The notes below the pieces were generated by a model. It had not been told where the DNA came from and made no database searches. It worked only from the letters and a program-made list of their open reading frames with translations. The translations under genes were made by a program, and so were the position numbers. Of a DNA stretch of 63,820 nt, positions 5,679 to 63,820 are shown in pieces. Positions within the stretch are counted from its first letter, which is position 1. Every line of letters begins with the position of its first letter. Source of the DNA: Opitutales bacterium (lineage in GTDB: Bacteria; Verrucomicrobiota; Verrucomicrobiia; Opitutales; Opitutaceae); contig JABITN010000050.1 of NCBI GenBank assembly GCA_018700525.1, forward strand, positions 1 through 63,820, read 5' to 3'.

Positions 5679-7619
5679 TCAATGGAAATCGTTTCTCAGG
5701 ACTTCGAATTCTGGAACAACTCCTCGATCGGTCACCTCTAGGAAAATCTGTGACCCCGCCTTATCTATAAGGATGGTCCAAGTATCTCCAGTTTGATTCA
5801 TCGTAACAACCGGATGCCGTTCCTCCGGTCTCAATGCAAAGCCGGCCATCATTAGCAGCGGATTCTCTACCGATCCATCAAGGCTACTTTCAATATATCG
5901 ATATTCATAATCAGCCAGATCCTTGGGGACTTTATATACCGTCCGCACATTGTTCACTGGAGCCGATCCGCCAAGGTATCCATAAAAACGAGCCCTTGGG
6001 CGACTGATTTCAAACCTACGGCCACTGACCTTCGCGTCACCTTGACCATCCTTGTTCTCCACATGCCAAAGGGCCGACAATTCCGTCATCCCTTTTGGCT
6101 TTTCAACCTTGTCCAAAACAACAAAACAGGACGCTTGAGGAAACCCGATCACCGTGCGCGTCACCGAACTCAGTTCAGGATTGTACCAACGATAAGCGGC
6201 AGTGGCATCGCTTACCCACCAAGCAAAACCTGGACGTTCTCCTGATCGAATTATCCGGGCACTCGATTTCGATTCGTTAGTGCCTTCTTCCCCTTTATGG
6301 TAATGCTGCTCCAGTCCGTCGATTAACACTGTGTTGTGTCCTATCGAACCGCGAAGTTTCCATTCCGCCGAATCCGCACTGTAATTTAGTTTAGTATGAT
6401 CGGCCAATAGAATTTCGCCCAACGCCTTAAACTGAATACTGTTGCGATCCGCGTGCTCGTGATTCGCAGGGAGCCCACTACGCATTGCCAAAACGAGATC
6501 ATCCATTTCGTATCCATCTCTCAATACAATCCAATCGAGATCGAGTTTCACGAAATGAGTAGCTGCGTCAGGAACAATTGGTTTCACTGAATCGTCATAG
6601 TGCAGGAACGAAAACAAATCATGAGGACTGTAATTTAAACCGATAAACTGCGATCGCCCATCCCTCGCATTGGCCGCTACCCAGAAAGCGGTTGAGGATG
6701 CCATCGTGCGATTGGCATCACCGAAGCTGACCGATCCATACTTATCCAAGGAATTTGGTAGATAGAGGGACAATACATAATCCATCAATCCCTGAAAATT
6801 GGCCGAATCGAAAAAATCGATACCGCGTTTACGCTTCACGACCTCCATGGCCATTACTTGATGGGTCATCGCATAATTCGCATAAGCCACAGCTTCATCG
6901 TAACTGCCGTCTGGCTTCAATAACTTGTTGAACGTTACGATGCTATCGAGAAGCGTTTCCTCCCATGCCTCCACGCGGTCATCGTGACCTTCCAACGCAT
7001 ATATCCCCAAAGCGAACCCGCCATTAATAACTGCCCGAAAATTATTGTTCCCCAGAATGGTCGGCCACCGGCTCATATCAATCGCGGGCCTTTCGTTATA
7101 CGGATCTCCAGGAAAAAAAGACCAGCCCTTCACTTTGTCTGGGTGACGCATTCCGTAAAGGGCCCTATAGATGGGCAAGCATCCTTTTTCCGCGATGGCC
7201 TCGCGTACAAAAACTCGCTCTTCCTCGGTGAAAAGATCATATAGCCAGTCGTAGCAAAGTGCCGCGTAAGTCGCTTTCTTCCCCGTAGTCAAAAATCCAA
7301 GCGGCAAGTCGCCTGCTTCAGCAAAGCGAGCCCAACGCTCTTCCGCGGCAAGAGCCAAAACCGATTCCTTCGCCCGCTGCCCGCGCTCTGAATCTCCAGT
7401 AATCAAATAGAGAAACGCTTCGCGCATACAATTTTGATCGTCCTCCAGATCTTGGCCCAACAGTTCTTCCCAATAAGCCTGAAAAACGGGAAGCTCCGTC
7501 TTTTCCCGCATACGATCGATATCCGGTTTTGAAAAGAGCAGTTCCTCCTCCACTCCCAAGGCAGAGACGAATGAAACAAACAGCGTGAGCAGTCCAAAAG
7601 GGACTATAAGTATTCTCAT
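5679..7619 (-). CDS. Heparinase II/III family protein (putative polysaccharide lyase)
   Basis: Exported protein of 646 residues if begun at the ATG at 7619, which places a Sec signal peptide (MRILIVPFG...) at the N-terminus; an upstream in-frame start would add 34 residues without a signal. The N-terminal half (about 60-330) looks like the alpha/alpha-toroid of heparinase II/III and alginate lyases, with NNNFRAVINGG (191-201) and DGSYDEAVAYANYAM (237-251). The C-terminal beta-sandwich begins near 375 with SGLPANHEHADRNS (H387, H389), typical of the family. It likely beta-eliminates uronate-containing polysaccharide in the periplasm. The gene is convergent with the sulfatase gene at 4289-5632. 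Exact polymer unknown. Confidence 0.88.
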   Translation of the reverse strand: MRILIVPFGLLTLFVSFVSALGVEEELLFSKPDIDRMREKTELPVFQAYWEELLGQDLEDDQNCMREAFLYLITGDSERGQRAKESVLALAAEERWARFAEAGDLPLGFLTTGKKATYAALCYDWLYDLFTEEERVFVREAIAEKGCLPIYRALYGMRHPDKVKGWSFFPGDPYNERPAIDMSRWPTILGNNNFRAVINGGFALGIYALEGHDDRVEAWEETLLDSIVTFNKLLKPDGSYDEAVAYANYAMTHQVMAMEVVKRKRGIDFFDSANFQGLMDYVLSLYLPNSLDKYGSVSFGDANRTMASSTAFWVAANARDGRSQFIGLNYSPHDLFSFLHYDDSVKPIVPDAATHFVKLDLDWIVLRDGYEMDDLVLAMRSGLPANHEHADRNSIQFKALGEILLADHTKLNYSADSAEWKLRGSIGHNTVLIDGLEQHYHKGEEGTNESKSSARIIRSGERPGFAWWVSDATAAYRWYNPELSSVTRTVIGFPQASCFVVLDKVEKPKGMTELSALWHVENKDGQGDAKVSGRRFEISRPRARFYGYLGGSAPVNNVRTVYKVPKDLADYEYRYIESSLDGSVENPLLMMAGFALRPEERHPVVTMNQTGDTWTILIDKAGSQIFLEVTDRGVVPEFEVLRNDFH

Positions 7620-7779
7620 ATTCGCAGGATAGGAAATCCACACAGAATTCCCAAGCGTTTTAAGGCCCCTTTTTCTTGTATTGTAAAATTTGGAATACGC
7701 CCGTCCCATGCGAGCAGTCAACAGGATCTATGGACTGTTTTCACCGTACCCGTTCATCGGTTTGTTAATCGGAGAATTT

Positions 7780-9462
7780 CTATTTCGAAAGAATCGGACC
7801 CGTACCCTGAGGATTGGTCGTGCGAGGACGATCGATTTTCGTCGCACTATTGGAAATCGTTGAACGATCCCATGATAAGATCTCTGCATCATCGATTACC
7901 TTAAGATGGAGGTCTTTAATTTCGACCCGATAGGGATTCCCGTTGTGTAGTTGAATCGCCAACAGACCATCCAATGCTCGGCCCTCTTTATGATGATCGA
8001 TCAACTCTGAAGTAATCTTACCATTCACTCGATGAATCAGATGATTGCCACGAGCCTCCACAGAGTATTCAGTCCATTGAGAAAGGTCCGCTTTCACCGG
8101 CTCATGTTCCGACAACAACCAACGCTCGCCTTTCCTATCAAGCATAACATTTTTCCCATTAAGTCCAAAGATACCACGTCCTTTCTCCTCGTAGGTCATG
8201 CCCGTGTGTTCGATAGCTGGATGTGCATCGCATTGATAGCCGGCAATTGCATACGGACCAACTTTCGGCAGCACTCGACTGCGATACTGGATACCGGAAT
8301 TATTATCTCCTATCAATCGCATTGTTGCTCGTAATTCGAAATCCCTCACCGTCCCATCTTTCCAGATCAAAAAGGTATTGTGAGCCAAATGTCCGGGCCC
8401 ATCGCAGGTGCCAACAACAATACCGTCCTCAACTTTCCAGAGCCCCGGAGCACCCTCCCAACCAGTCAGGTCCTTTCCATTGAACAAGGAGACGAAGCCC
8501 TTTCCCGCATCCACCCTATCCTTAGTCAGCGTCGCAATGAGGTAGTCCGTGGCGCTCGCATGCTTCACTCCTGGCGCCTGCGGATAGACTAGCTCAGTAT
8601 CTACTCCGATCTCCCTGCAATGCTCCTGCAATTTCAATCCAAAATTCGCCGTATGCGTAGGATCTTTCTGGTCCTGCCCAAGCTCTGGTGGATTCGAATA
8701 ATTAAGATACACAGGAGGGTCATCCTTTGTCACTAGGGCATAAGGCGAATACTCGGCGATCCAAGGCAAAATAGAATCCCTTCCCTTAAGAAAGGAATCG
8801 AATTTCATCAGCCCAAAGGCATGCCCACCGTATCGACTATTTGGAGTCCACATTTTCATTTGCTTCGGGTCAAGCGATGTCTGGGCCCCATTGACAGCAG
8901 CACACCAAAGACGAGAAGACTCACGAGCAACAGGATCTTCGCTATCAGGATCCGCAAGATCGTCATGAAAAGCCAACCACAAGCTAGAGCAAGCCCCGGC
9001 AGAACCTCCCGCCGCTCCTATGCGTCTTTTATCAAGCCCCCACTCGTCTGCTTTGCTACGAATGAATTGCAGGGCTCGAGCCGCATCATGCAAAGGCGCC
9101 TTCACCGGTGGTTCAATTCCCGCATCGACCGCTTGGGACACGTATCGATAATTAATTGCCACGATCGAGATGCCGGCTGCTAGCAGAGCATTAGGCTCCG
9201 CGAAACGGTGAAGCCGTTCCTTCGAACCGCCATTCCAACCACCACCATGAATCACGAGGACGACCGGAGTCGGCCTGTCCGAATCAGCTTTCCAAAAATC
9301 GAGAACATGACGTTCATGATCGCCATAGGCCACTTCGGTCAAGGTAGGCTTTGGCACAGAGGCATCGTAACCCTCAGGCTTACGCTCAGCGGTTTGAGCG
9401 GTTGCGAGACTAGCTAAAGCGAAGTCAACAATAAGAAGAATCAGGGGAGCACGAAATTTCAT
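7780..9462 (-). CDS. Fusion of alpha/beta-hydrolase esterase with a C-terminal DUF1080 (3-keto-disaccharide hydrolase) domain
   Basis: Exported 560-residue two-domain protein; ATG at 9462 gives a Sec signal ending near ATAQ (20-23). Residues about 35-320 are a BD-FAE/hormone-sensitive-lipase-type esterase: oxyanion motif HGGG (72-75), nucleophile motif GGSAG (152-156, S154) and a likely histidine in PGVKHAS. Residues about 335-525 form a DUF1080 domain, opening with LFNGKDLTGWEG and containing SGIQYRSRV and EEKGRGIFGLNG; it closely resembles the single-domain DUF1080 protein at 61272-62012. The esterase may remove acyl groups from a glycan that the DUF1080 part then cleaves. Both domain calls are secure; the joint substrate is inference. 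Confidence 0.9.
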   Translation of the reverse strand: MKFRAPLILLIVDFALASLATAQTAERKPEGYDASVPKPTLTEVAYGDHERHVLDFWKADSDRPTPVVLVIHGGGWNGGSKERLHRFAEPNALLAAGISIVAINYRYVSQAVDAGIEPPVKAPLHDAARALQFIRSKADEWGLDKRRIGAAGGSAGACSSLWLAFHDDLADPDSEDPVARESSRLWCAAVNGAQTSLDPKQMKMWTPNSRYGGHAFGLMKFDSFLKGRDSILPWIAEYSPYALVTKDDPPVYLNYSNPPELGQDQKDPTHTANFGLKLQEHCREIGVDTELVYPQAPGVKHASATDYLIATLTKDRVDAGKGFVSLFNGKDLTGWEGAPGLWKVEDGIVVGTCDGPGHLAHNTFLIWKDGTVRDFELRATMRLIGDNNSGIQYRSRVLPKVGPYAIAGYQCDAHPAIEHTGMTYEEKGRGIFGLNGKNVMLDRKGERWLLSEHEPVKADLSQWTEYSVEARGNHLIHRVNGKITSELIDHHKEGRALDGLLAIQLHNGNPYRVEIKDLHLKVIDDAEILSWDRSTISNSATKIDRPRTTNPQGTGPILSK

Positions 9463-17055: not shown

Positions 17056-17359
17056 CCTAGACTTGAGTTGGGGGTTCCTTCTCCGAATAAAAGTCGTACC
17101 GAGAAAAGTAAGGGAGAAATGAACACTCGCAGCATTACCATCATGATGCGAGCCATTTTAGGAACAAGAGATAGTGACGGATATTCCTAACGCGTCAGGA
17201 AGCCACGTTCCAGATTCTATCCTACAAATGGCTAGGTGGATCTGAGACTCCGGACGAGCTTGATTCGCAAAGGTTGCACCTTGACCACATTAATAGGTAG
17301 CACATGCTCCGGAAGCCCCTTCCCCTTAACTCTTCTTTCCATTGCCTCAATACCGCCTT
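17056..17359. other. Divergent intergenic region between sulfatase and alpha/beta hydrolase
   Basis: The two flanking genes diverge from this stretch, so it should hold both promoters. I recognise no repeat, RNA or small gene in it. A long reverse-strand frame that covers part of it has no family resemblance and shadows the hydrolase. Confidence 0.4.
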
Positions 17360-18187
17360 ATGAAATACAGAAACCATTGGATAGTCGTGCTTGCGATACT
17401 TGGACTCACTACACTTACGTTCAATCGCACCAGCTACGCAGCACCGGAACCGAACCCAAAAGCCGAACCGGACATCAATGAAACGCTTAAAAGCATCAAT
17501 AGCAGTTTCAAGAATACCGAAGTACAAATCATCAATTGGCCGGATAAGCTGCACAAGCGATTAGGCAATCTCAAGAAATCCGCCTTTATTGCATTTCCAA
17601 CCCAAAGGCCTTCCGGAAAGCTTCCCTTGCTCATAACGCTACATGGTGGTGGCGGGAAAGAGATGAGCCTACAAAAGCAGCTCGTGCGATCCTCACAAGT
17701 TAAAGGACTCGCTCTTGCCGAACTTACAGGGAAAAACCTAATACTACTGGACCCAAATTCCTCTGATAATTGGGATGCGGATACGCTCGACCGTATGCTT
17801 GATTACGTCCTCAGAACTTACAAGGAAATCGACAAAAGCCGCATCTACGTCATGGGCCACAGCATGGGCGGACGCGGAACCTGGAGCTGGATCCTTAAAT
17901 CCGCCGACCGGTTCGCCGCTGCAGCTCCCTGCGGATTTCCAAATGGATCCAGCAAAGAAGGAATAGAAAACCTCACCAAACTCCCAATCTGGGGAATGGT
18001 CGGAGGCGATGACGGCGACAACGTAGCAGGTATCCAACAAATGACCGAAAACCTACGCGCCACAGGCAATGTAAACGTTAGGCACACGGCATTCCCAGGC
18101 GCGAAACACGCCCAAGGAAACGCCGCCGTTTTCAGCTCCATAGAATTAGTCGACTGGATGCTAAGCTTTTCCAAGTCGGCTCGATGA
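17360..18187 (+). CDS. Exported alpha/beta hydrolase (esterase/PHB-depolymerase-like)
   Basis: A 275-residue secreted hydrolase. The ATG at 17360 gives a Sec signal ending in TSYA (24-27). LHGGGGK (94-100) forms the oxyanion loop, GHSMGGRG (166-173) carries the nucleophile Ser168, and the acid and base are likely Asp218-220 (VGGDDGD) and His250 (PGAKHAQG). The arrangement fits the predicted-peptidase/esterase family related to polyhydroxybutyrate depolymerases and feruloyl esterases. Its stop codon overlaps the ATG of the following IS3 remnant by four bases, which probably reflects the insertion point rather than functional coupling. Substrate is unknown; esterified glycans are plausible in this setting. 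Confidence 0.88.
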   Translation: MKYRNHWIVVLAILGLTTLTFNRTSYAAPEPNPKAEPDINETLKSINSSFKNTEVQIINWPDKLHKRLGNLKKSAFIAFPTQRPSGKLPLLITLHGGGGKEMSLQKQLVRSSQVKGLALAELTGKNLILLDPNSSDNWDADTLDRMLDYVLRTYKEIDKSRIYVMGHSMGGRGTWSWILKSADRFAAAAPCGFPNGSSKEGIENLTKLPIWGMVGGDDGDNVAGIQQMTENLRATGNVNVRHTAFPGAKHAQGNAAVFSSIELVDWMLSFSKSAR

Positions 18188-18189
18188 AT

Positions 18190-18411
18190 TCTGAACCGTC
18201 AAAAGAATTTTTTCTAAAACGTTGGAGACGAAAAATCCGTGTTCTAAGAGAAGCGGAAAGAAGCGACAAGACGATCTTGGACGTCTGCCGCGAGCAGCTC
18301 TGGGCTCTGACCGAGGCGCGAGTTGTAATCGAAGACTGGCGATGGAAGTACAACAATATACGGCCCCATCACTCGTTGGGCTACATTACTCCACTGGAGT
18401 TCTCTTAGGAA
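18190..18411 (+). mobile_element. IS3-family transposase remnant: OrfA start joined to OrfB end
   Basis: The frame 18184-18408 contains two recognisable pieces in direct succession. RKIRVLREAERSDKTILDVC matches the helix-turn-helix N-terminus of IS3-group OrfA, and from about 18298 EARVVIEDWRWKYNNIRPHH plus SLGYITPLEF matches the last residues of the OrfB integrase core, including the RPH-LGY signature. Everything between (over 300 residues in a full element) is missing. This is therefore an internally deleted, inactive IS3 derivative. Its outer ends could not be defined exactly; it stops within a few hundred bases of the nitric oxide synthase gene. Confidence 0.8.
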
Positions 18412-18605
18412 CTGCTGGAGGAACCCGAACCAAACCATTGTCGGGCCTCCTTGCGACCCGGCATTGACAAGCTATACAACATCAACCACATCACCAAGGC
18501 GTCCCGGCTAACGAAAGCGATGGCTCAGTTCGGGTAACTCGATCAGCGGCATTGCTAGCCTTTGAATTTCATTTTGCAAACGAGATGTGAACGATAATTA
18601 GATCC
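18412..18605. other. Spacer between IS3 remnant and small ORF
   Basis: About 190 bases without a convincing gene. The first part probably still belongs to the 3' untranslated end of the IS3 element; the rest would be the promoter region for the small ORF and the synthase. I could not identify a terminal inverted repeat or promoter with confidence. Confidence 0.3.
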
Positions 18606-18758
18606 ATGATTCTCTTTGTTGAAATATGCTCCTCATTTATAATTCTTTCTCTGCCTTTCCTTGCAATTTGCGGGCATCGTGCACCAATTGCCTACCAGGA
18701 TGCGAGCGAGTTCCCTTTAATGAACCCCGAGCCAAACATTAACAACTACGGAAAGTGA
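18606..18758 (+). CDS. Small hydrophobic protein overlapping the nitric oxide synthase start
   Basis: A 50-codon frame opened by ATG at 18606. Residues 1-23 are strongly hydrophobic (MILFVEICSSFIILSLPFLA then ICG), followed by a short polar tail rich in Pro and Asn ending NPEPNINNYGK. Its TGA stop overlaps the GTG start of the synthase (GTGA, 18755-18758), the arrangement of translationally coupled genes. I do not recognise a family. It could be a membrane peptide partner or anchor for the synthase, or a chance frame; the exact overlap and the signal-like N-terminus favour a real gene. There is no clear ribosome-binding site. Confidence 0.45.
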   Translation: MILFVEICSSFIILSLPFLAICGHRAPIAYQDASEFPLMNPEPNINNYGK

Positions 18759-19876
18759 TCAATACAGACATAAAGAACTGCACCAGCGAAGCGATGGAGT
18801 TCATAGATATGTGTGCCGATGAGCTGCGAGACGCAAATATTGATTGGGCGGCACGCCGTGCATTCGTGCTTGAGTCGCTAAATTTAGACAAGGCATGGTC
18901 GCCCACGCCGGAGGAAATTGAGTTCGGTGCACGTGTCGCCTGGCGCAACAATGCAAAATGCATCGGGCGCCTCTTTTGGTCATCGCTCCAAGTAAGAGAT
19001 CGCCGCAAGCTAAGTGACCCTGATCTTGTGGCAGAAGATCTACTTGAGCATATACGTTTAGCGACTAACGGAGGCAAGATTCTTCCCATCATAACTGTCT
19101 ACTCACCGGCTGACAGAGCAGGACCACAACTGCGGATCTGGAATGATCAATTATTCGGCTATGCTGGATATGGACGACTGGCGGATGGTTGCTATTTGGG
19201 CGATCCGAAAAACGAGGCCTTTACGCAGAAAGCCCTTGCTCTTGGCTGGCAATCGGATCGTACCAATTTCGACTTGCTTCCGTGGATTATCCAAAAGCGC
19301 GGCGAAGAGCCGCGCCTATTTAAGCCCCCAAAGACAGAATGCTTGGAGATCAGACTGAAACACTCAAAATTCGATTGGTTCAGGGACTTAAACTTACGTT
19401 GGTATGCTGTGCCAATACTATCGGGAATGAATTTAAGTATCGGTGGCATAGAATTTCCAGCCGCTCCGTTTAACGGCTGGTATATGGAAACGGAAATCGG
19501 GTCCCGCGACTTGGGGGATACTGCACGTTACAATGTTTTGCCGAAAATAGCCGAGCTCATGGGTCTATTGCGGCCAACTGAGGATCCTTTATGGAAAGAT
19601 CGGGCGTTAGTTGAATTGAATGAAGCAGTTTTGCATTCTTTCAATGAAGATGGCGTGCGTATCGTCGACCATCATCGCGCCTCTTCAGAATTTATGCGAT
19701 TTGTCGCCGCGGAAAAAAAGCAAGGCCGTCTCACTTCAGGAAACTGGAGCTGGCTAGTCCCACCTATGTCTGGTTCCACGACCGATGTCTTTCACCAAAA
19801 TTGGAAGGACCTAAAAAACACGCCTGCCTACCTGTACCAAGACCATGCCTGGAAACAGAATTTGGAAACGATCTAG
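18755..19876 (+). CDS. nos: Nitric oxide synthase, oxygenase domain only
   Basis: A 373-residue bacterial-type NOS oxygenase that should oxidise L-arginine to citrulline and nitric oxide using heme, a pterin and an external reductase. Visible signatures: WRNNAKCIGRLFW (63-75) with the proximal heme Cys69; substrate glutamate E247 in TEIGSRDL; NEAVLHSFNEDGVRIVDHH (289-307); pterin-side WSWLVPPMSG (331-340) and VFHQNW. The GTG start at 18755 is preferred because the N-terminus then aligns with Bacillus NOS (about 363 residues). No reductase domain or reductase gene is adjacent. Odd: Glu245 stands where GWYMGTEIG normally has Gly. An IS3 remnant lies upstream, which suggests acquisition. The family is certain. 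Confidence 0.96.
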   Translation: MINTDIKNCTSEAMEFIDMCADELRDANIDWAARRAFVLESLNLDKAWSPTPEEIEFGARVAWRNNAKCIGRLFWSSLQVRDRRKLSDPDLVAEDLLEHIRLATNGGKILPIITVYSPADRAGPQLRIWNDQLFGYAGYGRLADGCYLGDPKNEAFTQKALALGWQSDRTNFDLLPWIIQKRGEEPRLFKPPKTECLEIRLKHSKFDWFRDLNLRWYAVPILSGMNLSIGGIEFPAAPFNGWYMETEIGSRDLGDTARYNVLPKIAELMGLLRPTEDPLWKDRALVELNEAVLHSFNEDGVRIVDHHRASSEFMRFVAAEKKQGRLTSGNWSWLVPPMSGSTTDVFHQNWKDLKNTPAYLYQDHAWKQNLETI

Positions 19877-21366: not shown

Positions 21367-22695
21367 CTAGCCAACCGGTTTGATTTTCCAACCTTTACGA
21401 TACGTTTTGGAGACGAAATGACTGGCTTCGTCGAAGTTCGTAAACGAAAGCGTCTCACTATTCCACTGCAACGTTTCGTCTGGAAATCGGCTCGCTATAT
21501 TACCAAGTTGAACGGCCTCGGTTAAGGGACCTCCATAGTCGAATCCGTCGCTGGGCTGGAGCCCGGACAAACAGCCGTCTACGAATCCGTGATAATGGTT
21601 AAGGTCATCGGCTATTTCAATACTACCTTCAGGGTAATTAGCTTCAGGATATAAAAGTGGTTTACGAAAATGCGGCAGCACCAGAGTACCGGTCTCTCCA
21701 AGAAGTAGAGAACCGCTTGAGGGGAGTGCCGTCATCTCCGAAATGTGCGTACCAGCGGTGGGCGGCTTCAACCCTCCGTTGTACCACGTGATTCGAATCT
21801 TATCTTTTTCCGTGTATTCGGTTCCTGGAAACAAATAATGTACTGTGCTTTGGGCAGGCCAAACTTCGTCATTCATTCCCGTATGCTCTGCTTTTATCTC
21901 AAAGGGACCGCAGCTCATATTTATTGCAGTGAAAACGGGATCGAGAATGTGGCAGCCGAAATCGCCCAATGCGCCGCTGCCGAAATCCTGCCAGTCTCGC
22001 CAGCCCCAAGGGTGGTATACTCGATCGCCCCCGTAGCGACGTTTAGGAGCAACGCCAAGCCAGAGATCCCAGTCGAGCGTTCGAGGAATAGGTGGGGTTG
22101 ATTTCGGTCGGCTGATCAGTCCGGATCGTCCGTGGCCCGCAGCGTTTACCCAGGAATGAATGCGTTTAACTTTGCCGATTTTTCCCTCGCGGATCGCCCG
22201 CACCGCAGTGCGATAGTGAGTGTGGGAATGAATTTGATTTCCCTACCGCGTGATCACTTTTGACTTTGCCGCTTGAAGCGCCATTTGCCGTGCTTCCCAA
22301 ACGGTATGGGTGAGTGGCTTTTGACAATAGACATGCTTGCCTCTGCGCATTGCGTCCAGGGAAATGTAGGCATGCATATGGTCAGGAGTGGAGACCGAGA
22401 CTGCGTCGATTTTATCGCCAAGAGTTTCGAACATTTCACGATAATCTTGAAATACGGGTGCATTAGGCCGCAACTCCTTAACCTTTGCAATCCGGGCGAG
22501 ATCAACATCGCAGAAAGCGACGTGTATCGCACGACCGTGATTGGCCATTATTGCGGTATCGGAGTATCCCTTACCTCCTGTACCGATCGAGGCAAGCTGA
22601 AGCTTCGAATTGAGATTACGTCCACGGACTAAGGCGGGGGCAACCGCTAGAAATGCAGTAGTGGTTTCGAGAAAGCGACGTCGGTTTGTCTTCAT
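21367..22695 (-). pseudogene. Gfo/Idh/MocA oxidoreductase interrupted by an in-frame amber codon
   Basis: Translation from the ATG at 22695 gives a Tat signal (NRRRFLETTT), a Rossmann start (ASIGTGGKGYSD) and the CQKPLTHT signature, then stops at TAG in 22243-22245. The same frame continues without a shift (GNQIHSHTHYRTAVRAIREG) through a complete C-terminal domain to 21367. The interruption falls where relatives read ITQMGNQ-H, here ITR-stop-GNQ-H, so a single codon region is altered. The whole frame is about 443 codons, normal for the family. Either the gene is recently inactivated, the base calls are wrong, or the stop is read through. Otherwise it would be a periplasmic sugar oxidoreductase. 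Confidence 0.85.
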
Positions 22696-39943: not shown

Positions 39944-41389
39944 ATGAAACGCTTCATACTCCTCGCCGCCGCGCTACACCTCGGTTCTCTCGGCTTCTCA
40001 CCTGCCGTAGCCGATGAGAGCCAATCCAAAAAGCAGAATATTCTGCTCATTTGCGTCGACGACCTTCGTCCCGAGCTAAAGTCCTTTGGCGTCGATTACA
40101 TCCAATCGCCGAACATCGACCGACTCGCGGCCTCTGGCAGAGCCTTTCACAACCACTACGTAAACGCTCCCACCTGCGGTGCCTCGCGCTACACGATGCT
40201 AACTGGGCAGTACGGTTCTTATGGCAACCAAGCCCTCTTTGCACGGGCCGAGAAACTGAAATCTCCCAATTCATCCGTTCCCCCTAGCATGCCGGAGTGG
40301 TTCCGGAAAAATGGATACAAAACCGTATCCGTCGGCAAAGTCTCGCATCACCCAGGCGGCTGGGGCGGCGAAGATTGGTACGATCACAACGTCCTCGAAA
40401 TGCCCGGCGCTTGGGATCGTCAACTCATGCCCACCGGCCAATGGAAACATCCACGAGGCGCTATGCATAGCCTGGCTCACGGGGAGATCAAACCCATCGG
40501 ATCCTTTTCGGAAAACAAAATGGATGCTTTTCAAAGTGCTGGAGACAACGACGCCGATCAACATGATGGTCTAATTACCGACGCCGGGCTCGAACAACTC
40601 GAATATTTGGCCGGTGAAGACGAGCCCTTCTTCCTCGCCATCGGCCTCATCAAGCCTCACCTCCCCTTCGGTTCGCCCAAGCGCTATATGGACCCCTACA
40701 AAGGAATCGACCTACCTCCGATCCCCCATCCAGGAAAGCCAGGCGGGCAAAGCACCTGGCATGGTTCGGGCGAATTCATGAGCCAATATTTCCATTACGG
40801 GCAAGACCCTCGCGACGATGACGCCTACGCGGATACAGTGCGTCGCCACTACGCTGCCTGCGTAAGCTACGTCGACCATAACGTCGGAGAAATCCTCACC
40901 AAACTAAAGGAAACCGGTAGAGACCAGGACACCATCGTCATTCTCTGGGGCGATCACGGCTGGCACCTGGGAGAGCACGCCATCTGGGGCAAGCATTGCC
41001 TCTTCGAAGAAGCCCTACGCTCCCCTCTCATCATCTCAGTCCCCGGTATGAAACGTCCGGGCGCAAAGTCGAGCGCGGTCATCGAAACCGTCGATCTCTT
41101 TCCCACCCTTTGCGAACTCACCGGCTTGGAGCGCCCTGACTTCGCCCACGGTTCTTCACTGCTTCCTCTAATCGAAAAGCCAAACGCCAAAGGCCACACG
41201 GCCTACGCCTACACCAACAAAGCTCAGACCCTCCGCACCGACCGCTATCGTTTCACTCTGCACAATGATGGCTACGCGGAGCTCTACGACCATGATTCTC
41301 CCAAAAAAGAAACTCAAAATATCGCCGGACAATTCCCCCGCAAAGTCGAAGAGCTCAAACAAGTGCTCCTAAAGAAAACGTCCAATTAG
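39944..41389 (+). CDS. Sulfatase, iduronate-2-sulfatase-like, with CxAxR motif
   Basis: A 481-residue Sec-exported sulfatase (signal 1-23, SPAVA). [14 protein letters not shown] (37-50) holds the first metal ligands. The formylglycine motif is CGASR (78-82), so alanine replaces the usual proline, a permitted variant. [17 protein letters not shown] gives the second metal block and [18 protein letters not shown] the iduronate-sulfatase-type loop. Codons are strongly C-ended compared with the AT-richer graveyard upstream. It is convergent with the long minus-strand sulfatase block. Substrate likely an O-sulfated uronate or related sugar, by family. Confidence 0.95.
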
Positions 41390-61271: not shown

Positions 61272-62012
61272 TTATTGCCTCAAGCGGATGTTCTTAAACT
61301 GCACAGTCATGTTCTTTCCTTTGTGCAGCTGCAATGCGAGTATGCCAGACTTGGCGGCCTTCTCCGCATCTAGATCCGTCACATCCACCGTTTTTTTGCC
61401 ATTGATGAAGTGCATCAATCGGTTCCCTCGGGCGACGATGCGATAGTCATTCCAGTCGCCCTGCTTAATCGCAGCCTGAATCTCATCGGAGTCGCCCACA
61501 CTACCCTTCACCTTGATCTCAGGCTTTTTCTTGCCTTCGGGAATGGGATGCACCTCCACCTTCTGTCCTCGCAGTGCCAGAATCCCGCGCCCTCTTTCTT
61601 CGTATAGAATTCCTGAATACTTGGTCCCTGCTTCGAAATCCGCCTGATAGCCGCCCACGGAGAACTTGGCCGCATCTAATACCTTGGCCCGGTACTGAAT
61701 GCCAGAGTTGGCCCAGCCATCATCATTGTTCCCCACGATTTTGAATTTCAGGAGCAATACGAAGTCCGCGACCTCTCCCCCCTGCCAAACGATGAAAGTG
61801 TTCGGGTCCACCACGTTGTCATCATCCGTCTGGCCCGTAATGGCCCCATCCTGCACCGACCAGAACTGAGGAAGTCCTTCCCAACCCGAGAGATCCTTGC
61901 CGTTGAAGATCTTTTTGAATTTCTTCTTTTCCTGAGCCAGGGCTCCGAAAGCAAAAAGAACAGAAAAAGCCGCACACAGGGCGACCTTCGAGTATGATTG
62001 AGTACGCTTCAT
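61272..62012 (-). CDS. Exported DUF1080 (3-keto-disaccharide hydrolase family) protein
   Basis: A 246-residue protein with a Sec signal (1-26, FGALAQ) and one DUF1080 domain: KIFNGKDLSGWEGLPQFWSV, NTFIVWQGGEVADF, NSGIQYRAKVL and YEERGRGILALRGQ. These blocks match the C-terminal domain of the fusion protein at 7780-9462 more closely than the DUF1080 protein at 39021-39737, so they form one subgroup. Expected role: cleavage of 3-keto-glycosides in the periplasm. It heads a two-gene unit with the small lipoprotein. Confidence 0.93.
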   Translation of the reverse strand: MKRTQSYSKVALCAAFSVLFAFGALAQEKKKFKKIFNGKDLSGWEGLPQFWSVQDGAITGQTDDDNVVDPNTFIVWQGGEVADFVLLLKFKIVGNNDDGWANSGIQYRAKVLDAAKFSVGGYQADFEAGTKYSGILYEERGRGILALRGQKVEVHPIPEGKKKPEIKVKGSVGDSDEIQAAIKQGDWNDYRIVARGNRLMHFINGKKTVDVTDLDAEKAAKSGILALQLHKGKNMTVQFKNIRLRQ

Positions 62013-62732: not shown

Positions 62733-63820
62733 TCACGGATTGTAGTAGGTCGGCGATCCTGGTCCCACAGGCAGGTCCAGACCAAAGGTCCATAGGACGA
62801 AGAAGCTGCTCCAGACGATGATGAAGAAGATCGTATAGGGCAGCATCATCGCGATCATCGTTCCTACGCCCAGGTTCTTGTCGTATCGGGTCGCCCACGC
62901 GAGGATGAGACCGAAGTAACTCATCATGGGCGTGATGATGTTTGTGGTGGAATCTCCAATACGATAGGCTGCCTGGATGGCTTCCGGAGCGTATCCAATC
63001 AACATAAGCATCGGCACGAAAATTGGCGCCGTTACCGCCCACTGCGCCGAAGCCGAGCCTAAGGAAAGGTTGATGACGGCGCACATGAGGATAAAGAAGA
63101 AGAAGACCATCGGGCCCGTCATGCCGGTATCTTTGAGGAACTCCGCGCCGGTGACCGCACTGATTGCTCCCAATTTGGTCCAGCCGAAGAAGGCAACGAA
63201 TTGTGCGGCGAAAAATACTAGGACGATATAAAGTCCCAAGGATGCCAAGGCCTTGGCCATGGCATCGATGACATCCCGATCAGTCCGCATTGTGCCGACA
63301 GCTCGGCCATAGGCATAACCCGTCGCGATGAAGAAAATGAGGATCCACACAACGAAACCGCGGAAGAACGGCGAATTGATCCGGTCTCCGGTCTCCGGAT
63401 TGCGAAAGACTCCCCATTCAGGAACCAAGGTCAGGGCCATCAGGCCCAACACTCCTAAGAGCACGATTAATGCCCAGAACAGCCCCCTCCTCTCATCGCA
63501 GGAGAGCCGCTCCATCATGCGCTTATCGAGTACGGCCGGATCGGCCCGAGAGGAATCGTATTTGCCCAGTTTTGGCTCTACGATAAAAATACTCACGAGC
63601 GAGCCCACAAGCGTTATCAAGAAAGTCGACGCGACCATGAAATACCAATTGGCGGTCGCCACCACGACATAATCCGGATCGATCAGACGAGCCGCTTCTT
63701 GTGTGATACCGGCCAAAAGCGGATCAATCGTCCCAATCAGAACATTGGCGCTATAGCCGCCTGAGACCCCAGCGAAGGCGGCGGCCATCCCTGCCAACGG
63801 ATGCCGATCGAGCGCGTAGA
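62733..63820 (-). CDS. AbgT family transporter (5' end outside window)
   Basis: The frame is open to the window edge; 362 C-terminal residues are visible of about 500 usual for the family. Multiple hydrophobic segments alternate with family motifs: FAGVSGGYSANVLIG, MCAVINLSLGSASAQWAVTA, PIFVPMLMLIGYAPE and RIGDSTTNIITPMMSYFGLI, the last two being the AbgT substrate-site region. AbgT proteins import p-aminobenzoyl-glutamate or act as drug/sulfonamide exporters. It does not obviously belong with the glycan genes. Its stop is followed immediately by the serine hydrolase remnant. Confidence 0.93.
   Translation of the reverse strand, partial: YALDRHPLAGMAAAFAGVSGGYSANVLIGTIDPLLAGITQEAARLIDPDYVVVATANWYFMVASTFLITLVGSLVSIFIVEPKLGKYDSSRADPAVLDKRMMERLSCDERRGLFWALIVLLGVLGLMALTLVPEWGVFRNPETGDRINSPFFRGFVVWILIFFIATGYAYGRAVGTMRTDRDVIDAMAKALASLGLYIVLVFFAAQFVAFFGWTKLGAISAVTGAEFLKDTGMTGPMVFFFFILMCAVINLSLGSASAQWAVTAPIFVPMLMLIGYAPEAIQAAYRIGDSTTNIITPMMSYFGLILAWATRYDKNLGVGTMIAMMLPYTIFFIIVWSSFFVLWTFGLDLPVGPGSPTYYNP

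Follow-up and report, generated by a model that had tools for sequence, protein, structure and literature searches.

A stand-alone nitric oxide synthase oxygenase assigned to a verrucomicrobial lineage in an Opitutales genome

Introduction

Among the described bacterial nitric oxide synthases (NOSs), one of the closest parallels to the gene considered here is that of Bacillus subtilis (bsNOS; PDB 4d3u, 1m7v), which consists of one oxygenase domain some 360 residues long. Flavodoxin is one reported donor, though not an obligatory one: passages of PMC3005942 report that flavodoxins support bsNOS, and that bacterial NOSs more likely rely on several electron sources than on a single reductase; in similar terms, part of PMC9311577 describes bacterial NOSs as using tetrahydrofolate together with available cellular reductases, and mentions reported roles in stress. 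A different arrangement, with the reductase preceding the oxygenase, is set out in a section of PMC3701330 for the self-sufficient NOS of Sorangium cellulosum, whose N-terminal reductase comprises 2Fe-2S, FAD and NAD domains, and, by similarity, for two cyanobacteria. As regards catalysis, a passage of PMC6104048 states that the residue at a Val/Ile position near the heme governs the kinetic profile of NOS, and Ile at this position is said there to hold for all bacterial NOSs.

For the Verrucomicrobiota, the relevant passage of PMC5673642 (2017) notes that a NOS gene was detected in Opitutae-Tous-C4FEB, that it is common to other reconstructed MAGs and that it lacks adjacent toxin genes. Further literature searching, which had most subscription journals outside its reach, gave no other title on verrucomicrobial NOS among the matches listed; PMC9500659, in the part concerned, names Verrucomicrobia for another enzyme. 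Here we analyze a NOS gene in a stretch of 63,820 nucleotides (hereafter, the window) that constitutes contig 6 of a 4.80 Mb Opitutales draft genome. It shares with the MAGs described in that passage of PMC5673642 the presence of a NOS gene in a verrucomicrobial genome and differs from them in that they are of freshwater origin, the likeness being one of description and not of sequence. The gene adds one member to the bacterial NOS family, itself well described and already reported from this phylum.

Identity and active site

The NOS oxygenase gene lies at positions 18755-19876 of the forward strand, exactly where the original prediction had placed it, and encodes 373 residues from a GTG start in an ORF that is open throughout (the frame from stop to stop spans 377 codons, four more than the called ORF). 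In a Pfam profile search the protein matches PF02898 over its full length (residues 8-367, profile positions 4-362 of 362; E 1.1e-138), and its 462.6 bits against a cut-off of 22.7 argue against any placement outside the NOS family. The best solved relatives in a phmmer search are bacterial NOS structures (residues 11-365, E about 1e-104), presumably of B. subtilis to judge from the title of 2an2, and the mammalian NOS isoforms rank after them; 161 of 352 aligned residues (45.7%) are identical to bsNOS. NCBIfam profiles, among which a NOS model may be lacking, gave no match. The protein consists of one Pfam domain without a fused reductase or calmodulin segment, and is the only NOS copy in the whole 4.80 Mb genome. 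Judged by its sequence, the gene is a genuine, intact-looking stand-alone bacterial NOS, and the full-length PF02898 match, the solved bacterial relatives and the catalytic residues described below bear out the family assignment first made for it.

An alignment of the window protein with bsNOS, 21 other verrucomicrobial NOSs (including two partial ones), 10 sequences from plasmids and 78 Bacillota loci places the proximal heme cysteine at Cys69 (codon 18959-18961, forward strand), accompanied by the stacking Trp63, and the substrate glutamate at Glu247 (codon 19493-19495, forward strand), with Trp242-Tyr243 as its neighbours, in agreement with the motifs and numbering previously quoted for this protein. 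The pterin-site residues Arg251, Trp331, Trp333 and Phe346 are also present, at positions that we take to be those of R375, W455, W457 and F470 in iNOS. The catalytic residues are identical in the nine other aligned members of the clade to which the protein belongs (see below), and the heme, substrate and pterin-site residues are the same in bsNOS.

The differences from bsNOS include Leu222 for Ile218, Gly224 for Asp220 and a PPMSGS stretch for PPISPA. Leu222 occupies the Val/Ile position near the heme, at which mammalian enzymes carry Val. Leu is found there in all ten aligned clade members, the window included, as against 67 Ile, 10 Val and 1 Leu in the 78 Bacillota loci, a sample that is biased for residue counts inasmuch as window-protein peptides served to collect it; the frequencies of Lys68 and Glu245 in Bacillota were set aside because the scanning peptides contained both residues. 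Outside the clade, Leu recurs in two other verrucomicrobial NOSs (L109 and L119) and in that one Bacillota locus. The window NOS departs, therefore, from the all-bacterial Ile criterion as worded in the passage of PMC6104048, and because Val or Leu occurs in other bacterial NOSs of the alignment, we do not take Ile at this position as defining the bacterial enzymes. Gly224 is unique to the window among the ten aligned clade members, the other nine having Asp. Together, Leu222 and Gly224 may confer on this NOS kinetics that differ from the usual.

Electron donor and pterin supply

In 38 of the larger ORFs of the window, Pfam recognised neither a flavodoxin or ferredoxin nor a reductase of the NOS type, matches being listed for part of the window with E <= 1e-8 only; this is in keeping with the earlier remark that no reductase gene lies nearby. 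The same remark had proposed a general flavodoxin or ferredoxin as donor. The flavodoxin half of that proposal is weakened by the host genome (96.5% complete), in which nothing exceeds the cut-off of PF00258, the one flavodoxin family searched; its sole and best match reaches 24.3 bits against a cut-off of 25 and has three stops inside. The host differs in this respect from B. subtilis, whose NOS is supported by flavodoxins according to the passages of PMC3005942. The only PF00175 protein of the genome is a CysJ-like FAD/NADPH module of 407 residues that lacks the flavodoxin part and falls below the NCBIfam cut-offs. Profile searches of the host genome for pterin genes found DHFR and two FolE2 loci, the second of which may be counted as incomplete since one of the pair is partial, but no FolE1; with FolE2 and DHFR present the required source of pterin is likely available, and tetrahydrofolate is likely to be the pterin of the window NOS.

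Phylogeny and distribution

Peptides of the window protein were used to scan 84,980 genomes; of the 225 relatives returned, 80 were kept, and the nearest kin among these 80 are a Puniceicoccaceae MAG from station ALOHA (73% identity) and an Opitutia MAG (69%), the other 78 being Bacillota at 45-51%. As the query peptides came from the window protein itself, these counts are not frequencies. Profile searches found NOS in 2 of 11 genomes of the genus, in 6 of 57 near relatives and, for the phylum as a whole, in 18 of 387 sampled genomes. A search with a fused verrucomicrobial NOS as query (E <= 1e-20) found it in 49 of 384 genomes of the class, every listed match extending into the NOS part of the query. 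The host genome is counted in all of these figures. NOS in Verrucomicrobiota is patchy but not rare. The original prediction had called a NOS in this group of phyla unexpected; as NOS in Opitutae was in print in 2017 (in the passage cited from PMC5673642) and 49 class genomes match, this appraisal is unsupported. A NOS was also found on 14 plasmid records, which belong to actinobacteria, alphaproteobacteria, a cyanobacterium, Deinococcus, Staphylococcus and haloarchaea.

In a first tree of 54 sequences, whose bootstrap had not fully settled and in which 20 of 51 inner branches are open, the window NOS groups with L002, G005, L003 and G172 (100/99, starred), apart from the Bacillota, actinobacterial, cyanobacterial, alphaproteobacterial, archaeal and Deinococcus sequences. 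The corresponding clade of a second tree, built from 46 sequences, has ten verrucomicrobial members (100/99, starred). The verrucomicrobial NOSs form several clades, and one (G249) joins Bacillota and a small number of further lineages in both trees (starred). The deep order is not settled in either tree; both were built without eukaryotic or planctomycetal sequences, without the fragments L103 and L118, without class-search genomes for which no locus was given, and with 55 (first) or 70 (second) of the 78 Bacillota loci omitted. The homologue search and phylogeny originally proposed for this gene thereby place its closest homologues in the Verrucomicrobiota, and on these trees the window NOS is assigned to an indigenous verrucomicrobial lineage. 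The NOS protein is kept under purifying selection: dN/dS is 0.075 between the L002 and G005 copies, while the window and L002 copies differ with pN 0.19 and a saturated pS of 0.87.

Genomic context

The NOS gene is preceded by an esterase-like alpha/beta-hydrolase of 281 residues (17342-18187, forward strand) and followed by a beta-lactamase-fold serine hydrolase (PF00144; 20052-21218, forward strand), neither of which shows any sign of partnership with NOS. Between the former and the NOS lies a transposase relic (18190-18546, forward strand), which we read as IS3-type and which consists of the C-terminal, integrase-core part of a transposase (rve_3, E 3.2e-12), a stop at 18406-18408 and the stretch from there to what is probably the terminus of the element. 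It matches two other places in the genome over 259 bases (query 101-359, 82%) and 103 bases (query 257-359, 89%); both matches end at window position 18546, and this shared end, which lies about 210 bp ahead of NOS, is probably the end of a transposable element.

Up to six ORFs on either side of NOS were compared, all against all, in the window and in 22 verrucomicrobial and 10 plasmid loci (281 ORFs, several loci being shortened by contig ends). No neighbour family occurs in more than 3 of these 33 loci, and a conserved NOS operon is accordingly rejected. Same-place neighbour families are confined to two loci each: the close pair L117/L119, the plasmid pair L130/L131, and the window with L002, which share an upstream alpha/beta-hydrolase that was set aside as a partner given its 27% identity and very common fold. 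The L002 and G005 NOSs are 92% identical and yet have no common neighbour in the stretches compared. A clean empty site in the congener G007, which lacks NOS, was also rejected: homologues of the flanks stand in the same order and on the same strand but some 5.7 kb apart with other genes between them, so that this interval varies and does not reveal a junction. From the relic and the differing neighbours, the NOS gene seems often to be moved or lost within the phylum.

Some neighbours elsewhere deserve mention, each being seen once: near NOS, G005 encodes a photolyase-related protein and an amine-oxidase-like flavoprotein (L104:5233-6828 and 6864-7922), and L002 a peroxiredoxin-like protein (L002:4689-5195), a set that is suggestive of stress roles. 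On Novosphingobium and Jannaschia plasmids (L130:2397-5197 and L131:2346-5173), NOS immediately follows a radical SAM gene, with an overlap of 4 bases between the two ORFs, and glycosyltransferase genes are found nearby; these two may possibly represent a divergent NOS group in a biosynthetic unit.

The window itself is a polysaccharide-degradation region, as originally described: it encodes 13 PF00884 sulfatases, two heparinase II/III-like proteins and three 3-keto-disaccharide hydrolases, as well as Gfo/Idh/MocA oxidoreductases. All 13 sulfatases fall within positions 76-60408 of this one 64 kb contig, together with the heparinase-like and PSCyt2/PSD1/DUF1501 proteins. Two adjoining ORFs on the reverse strand (21367-22203 and 22243-22695) match Gfo/Idh/MocA oxidoreductases, the first in their C-terminal part and the second in their N-terminal part; a frameshift, a stop or an assembly error may have divided a single gene into the two.

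Proposed function and alternative explanations

Taking together the family membership, the residues, the clade, the stand-alone context and the pterin genes observed here, we consider it highly probable that the gene encodes a stand-alone NOS oxygenase of an indigenous verrucomicrobial lineage that makes NO from arginine with tetrahydrofolate and a general cellular donor. By homology, the enzyme would be a homodimeric heme-thiolate protein that uses O2 to convert L-arginine into N-hydroxyarginine and then into citrulline and NO. Tetrahydrofolate made via FolE2 and DHFR would serve as its pterin, and electrons would arrive singly from a general low-potential donor of the cell, perhaps a ferredoxin system, which we propose because no flavodoxin of the tested family was recognised. 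The NO most likely serves responses to oxidative, UV or respiratory stress, as is reported of other bacteria. Against this explanation stand the lack of a donor among the genes found, the residues Leu222 and Gly224, the absence of a role-giving neighbour and that of an NCBIfam name.

The origin of the gene admits of two other explanations. That the contig is a contaminant or a binning error, which the original prediction had named as an outcome that would undo it, might be entertained for a draft in 268 contigs and a gene that is patchy within its genus, but is hardly credible: the contamination estimate is 0.43%, the NOS is closest to Verrucomicrobiota, and the same contig encodes proteins 94% (62733-63818) and 89% (61272-62012) identical to those of the congener G005, both at 61-64 kb, one 79% identical to G007 (39944-41389) and, directly downstream of NOS, one 79% and 75% identical to proteins of G007 and G009. 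The verrucomicrobial host, one of the two that had been envisaged, is supported, and the congener-like genes, together with both trees, lead us to reject contamination or recent transfer from Bacillota. A recent move of the gene, perhaps with a transposable element, such that it is not yet integrated into host physiology, deserves more weight though it remains unlikely. The transposase relic ending about 210 bp upstream, the presence of NOS in only 2 of 11 genus genomes and the lack of a shared neighbour around the L002 and G005 copies all speak for mobility; however, in both trees the closest relatives belong to Verrucomicrobiota, the GC (0.49) and GC3 (0.51) of the gene lie inside the range of the other window genes, albeit in its lower part, and the window and congener copies share about 70% identity, so that a move to this place need not have come from outside the phylum.

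A further alternative concerns the product rather than the origin, namely that Leu222 and Gly224 shift the chemistry toward slow NO release, or toward mainly N-hydroxyarginine, nitroxyl or nitrate, for a specialised use such as nitration or nitrogen scavenging. It would be consistent with the uniformity of Leu at the Val/Ile position in the clade, as compared with the (biased) Bacillota sample, with the kinetic importance that the passage of PMC6104048 attributes to this residue, and with the biosynthesis-like genes beside some plasmid NOSs. Nevertheless, the residues needed for the chemistry are conserved, Leu also occurs in the verrucomicrobial L109 and L119 outside the clade, and the verrucomicrobial copies have no common biosynthetic neighbour, all of which makes us regard a shifted product as improbable.

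Production of NO by a stand-alone oxygenase is thus the reading we retain, and it indicates a bacterial NO source native to Verrucomicrobiota that is mostly a stand-alone oxygenase and resides, in this case, on a sulfatase-rich contig. The window gene is, moreover, a test case for NOS in a genome without a recognised flavodoxin, and the stand-alone clade with Leu in its pocket is worth following along with the fused forms found in related genomes.

Reductase-fused and long forms in the class

In 3 of the 49 matching class genomes, NOS is fused to an N-terminal reductase, a layout of the Sorangium kind; the window protein shares with these and with the Sorangium enzyme the oxygenase family and consists of the oxygenase domain only. 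The fused NOS of G502 (L178:5170-8397, forward strand; 1075 residues, complete) comprises two cyclic-nucleotide-binding stretches, a BFD-like 2Fe-2S domain and an FAD domain, followed by the oxygenase. That of G036 (L102:3-2648, reverse strand; 882 residues, the gene being cut by the contig end) has the same domain order, its FAD domain falling just under the Pfam cut-off; Pfam shows no NAD domain in either. The third, from G530 (L179:1243-4608, reverse strand; 1121 residues), carries 2Fe-2S, FAD and NAD domains before the oxygenase, and the second tree separates it from G502 and G036, the fused NOSs not forming one group. Arg and Tyr stand in it at the two pterin-site positions that are Trp in the remaining sequences of the alignment, and for this reason it may not be a normally working NOS. 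The N-terminal part of G530 also differs, with an EF-hand-like stretch, DRDRDELISRAE, discerned by eye and without a Pfam match. A narrow literature search, which proves little, found no paper on a cyclic-nucleotide-binding NOS.

More speculatively, Verrucomicrobiota might be one of the main homes of NOS, long established and diverse, with a stand-alone, Leu-tuned clade that works without flavodoxin as well as reductase-fused NOSs, some of them cyclic-nucleotide-binding; we put this forward tentatively and think it, as a whole, rather doubtful. If true, the cyclic-nucleotide-binding domains could place NO synthesis under second-messenger control, and the fused NOSs that bear them may merit more study than the window gene itself.

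Twelve further long NOS frames of the class (L175 and 11 others) were rejected as fusions, their extensions appearing by eye to be low-complexity or read-through; in L175, the one of the twelve that was scanned, the N-terminal extension has no other domain. The NOS frames of genus g263 (L180-L184 and L190) share an upstream peptide, CPFLALSERLRLTGR, before the oxygenase part, and we know of no domain to which it corresponds. Another contig of G036 carries, mid-contig, a NOS fragment of 199 residues (L103:3085-3684, reverse strand) that is probably a remnant.
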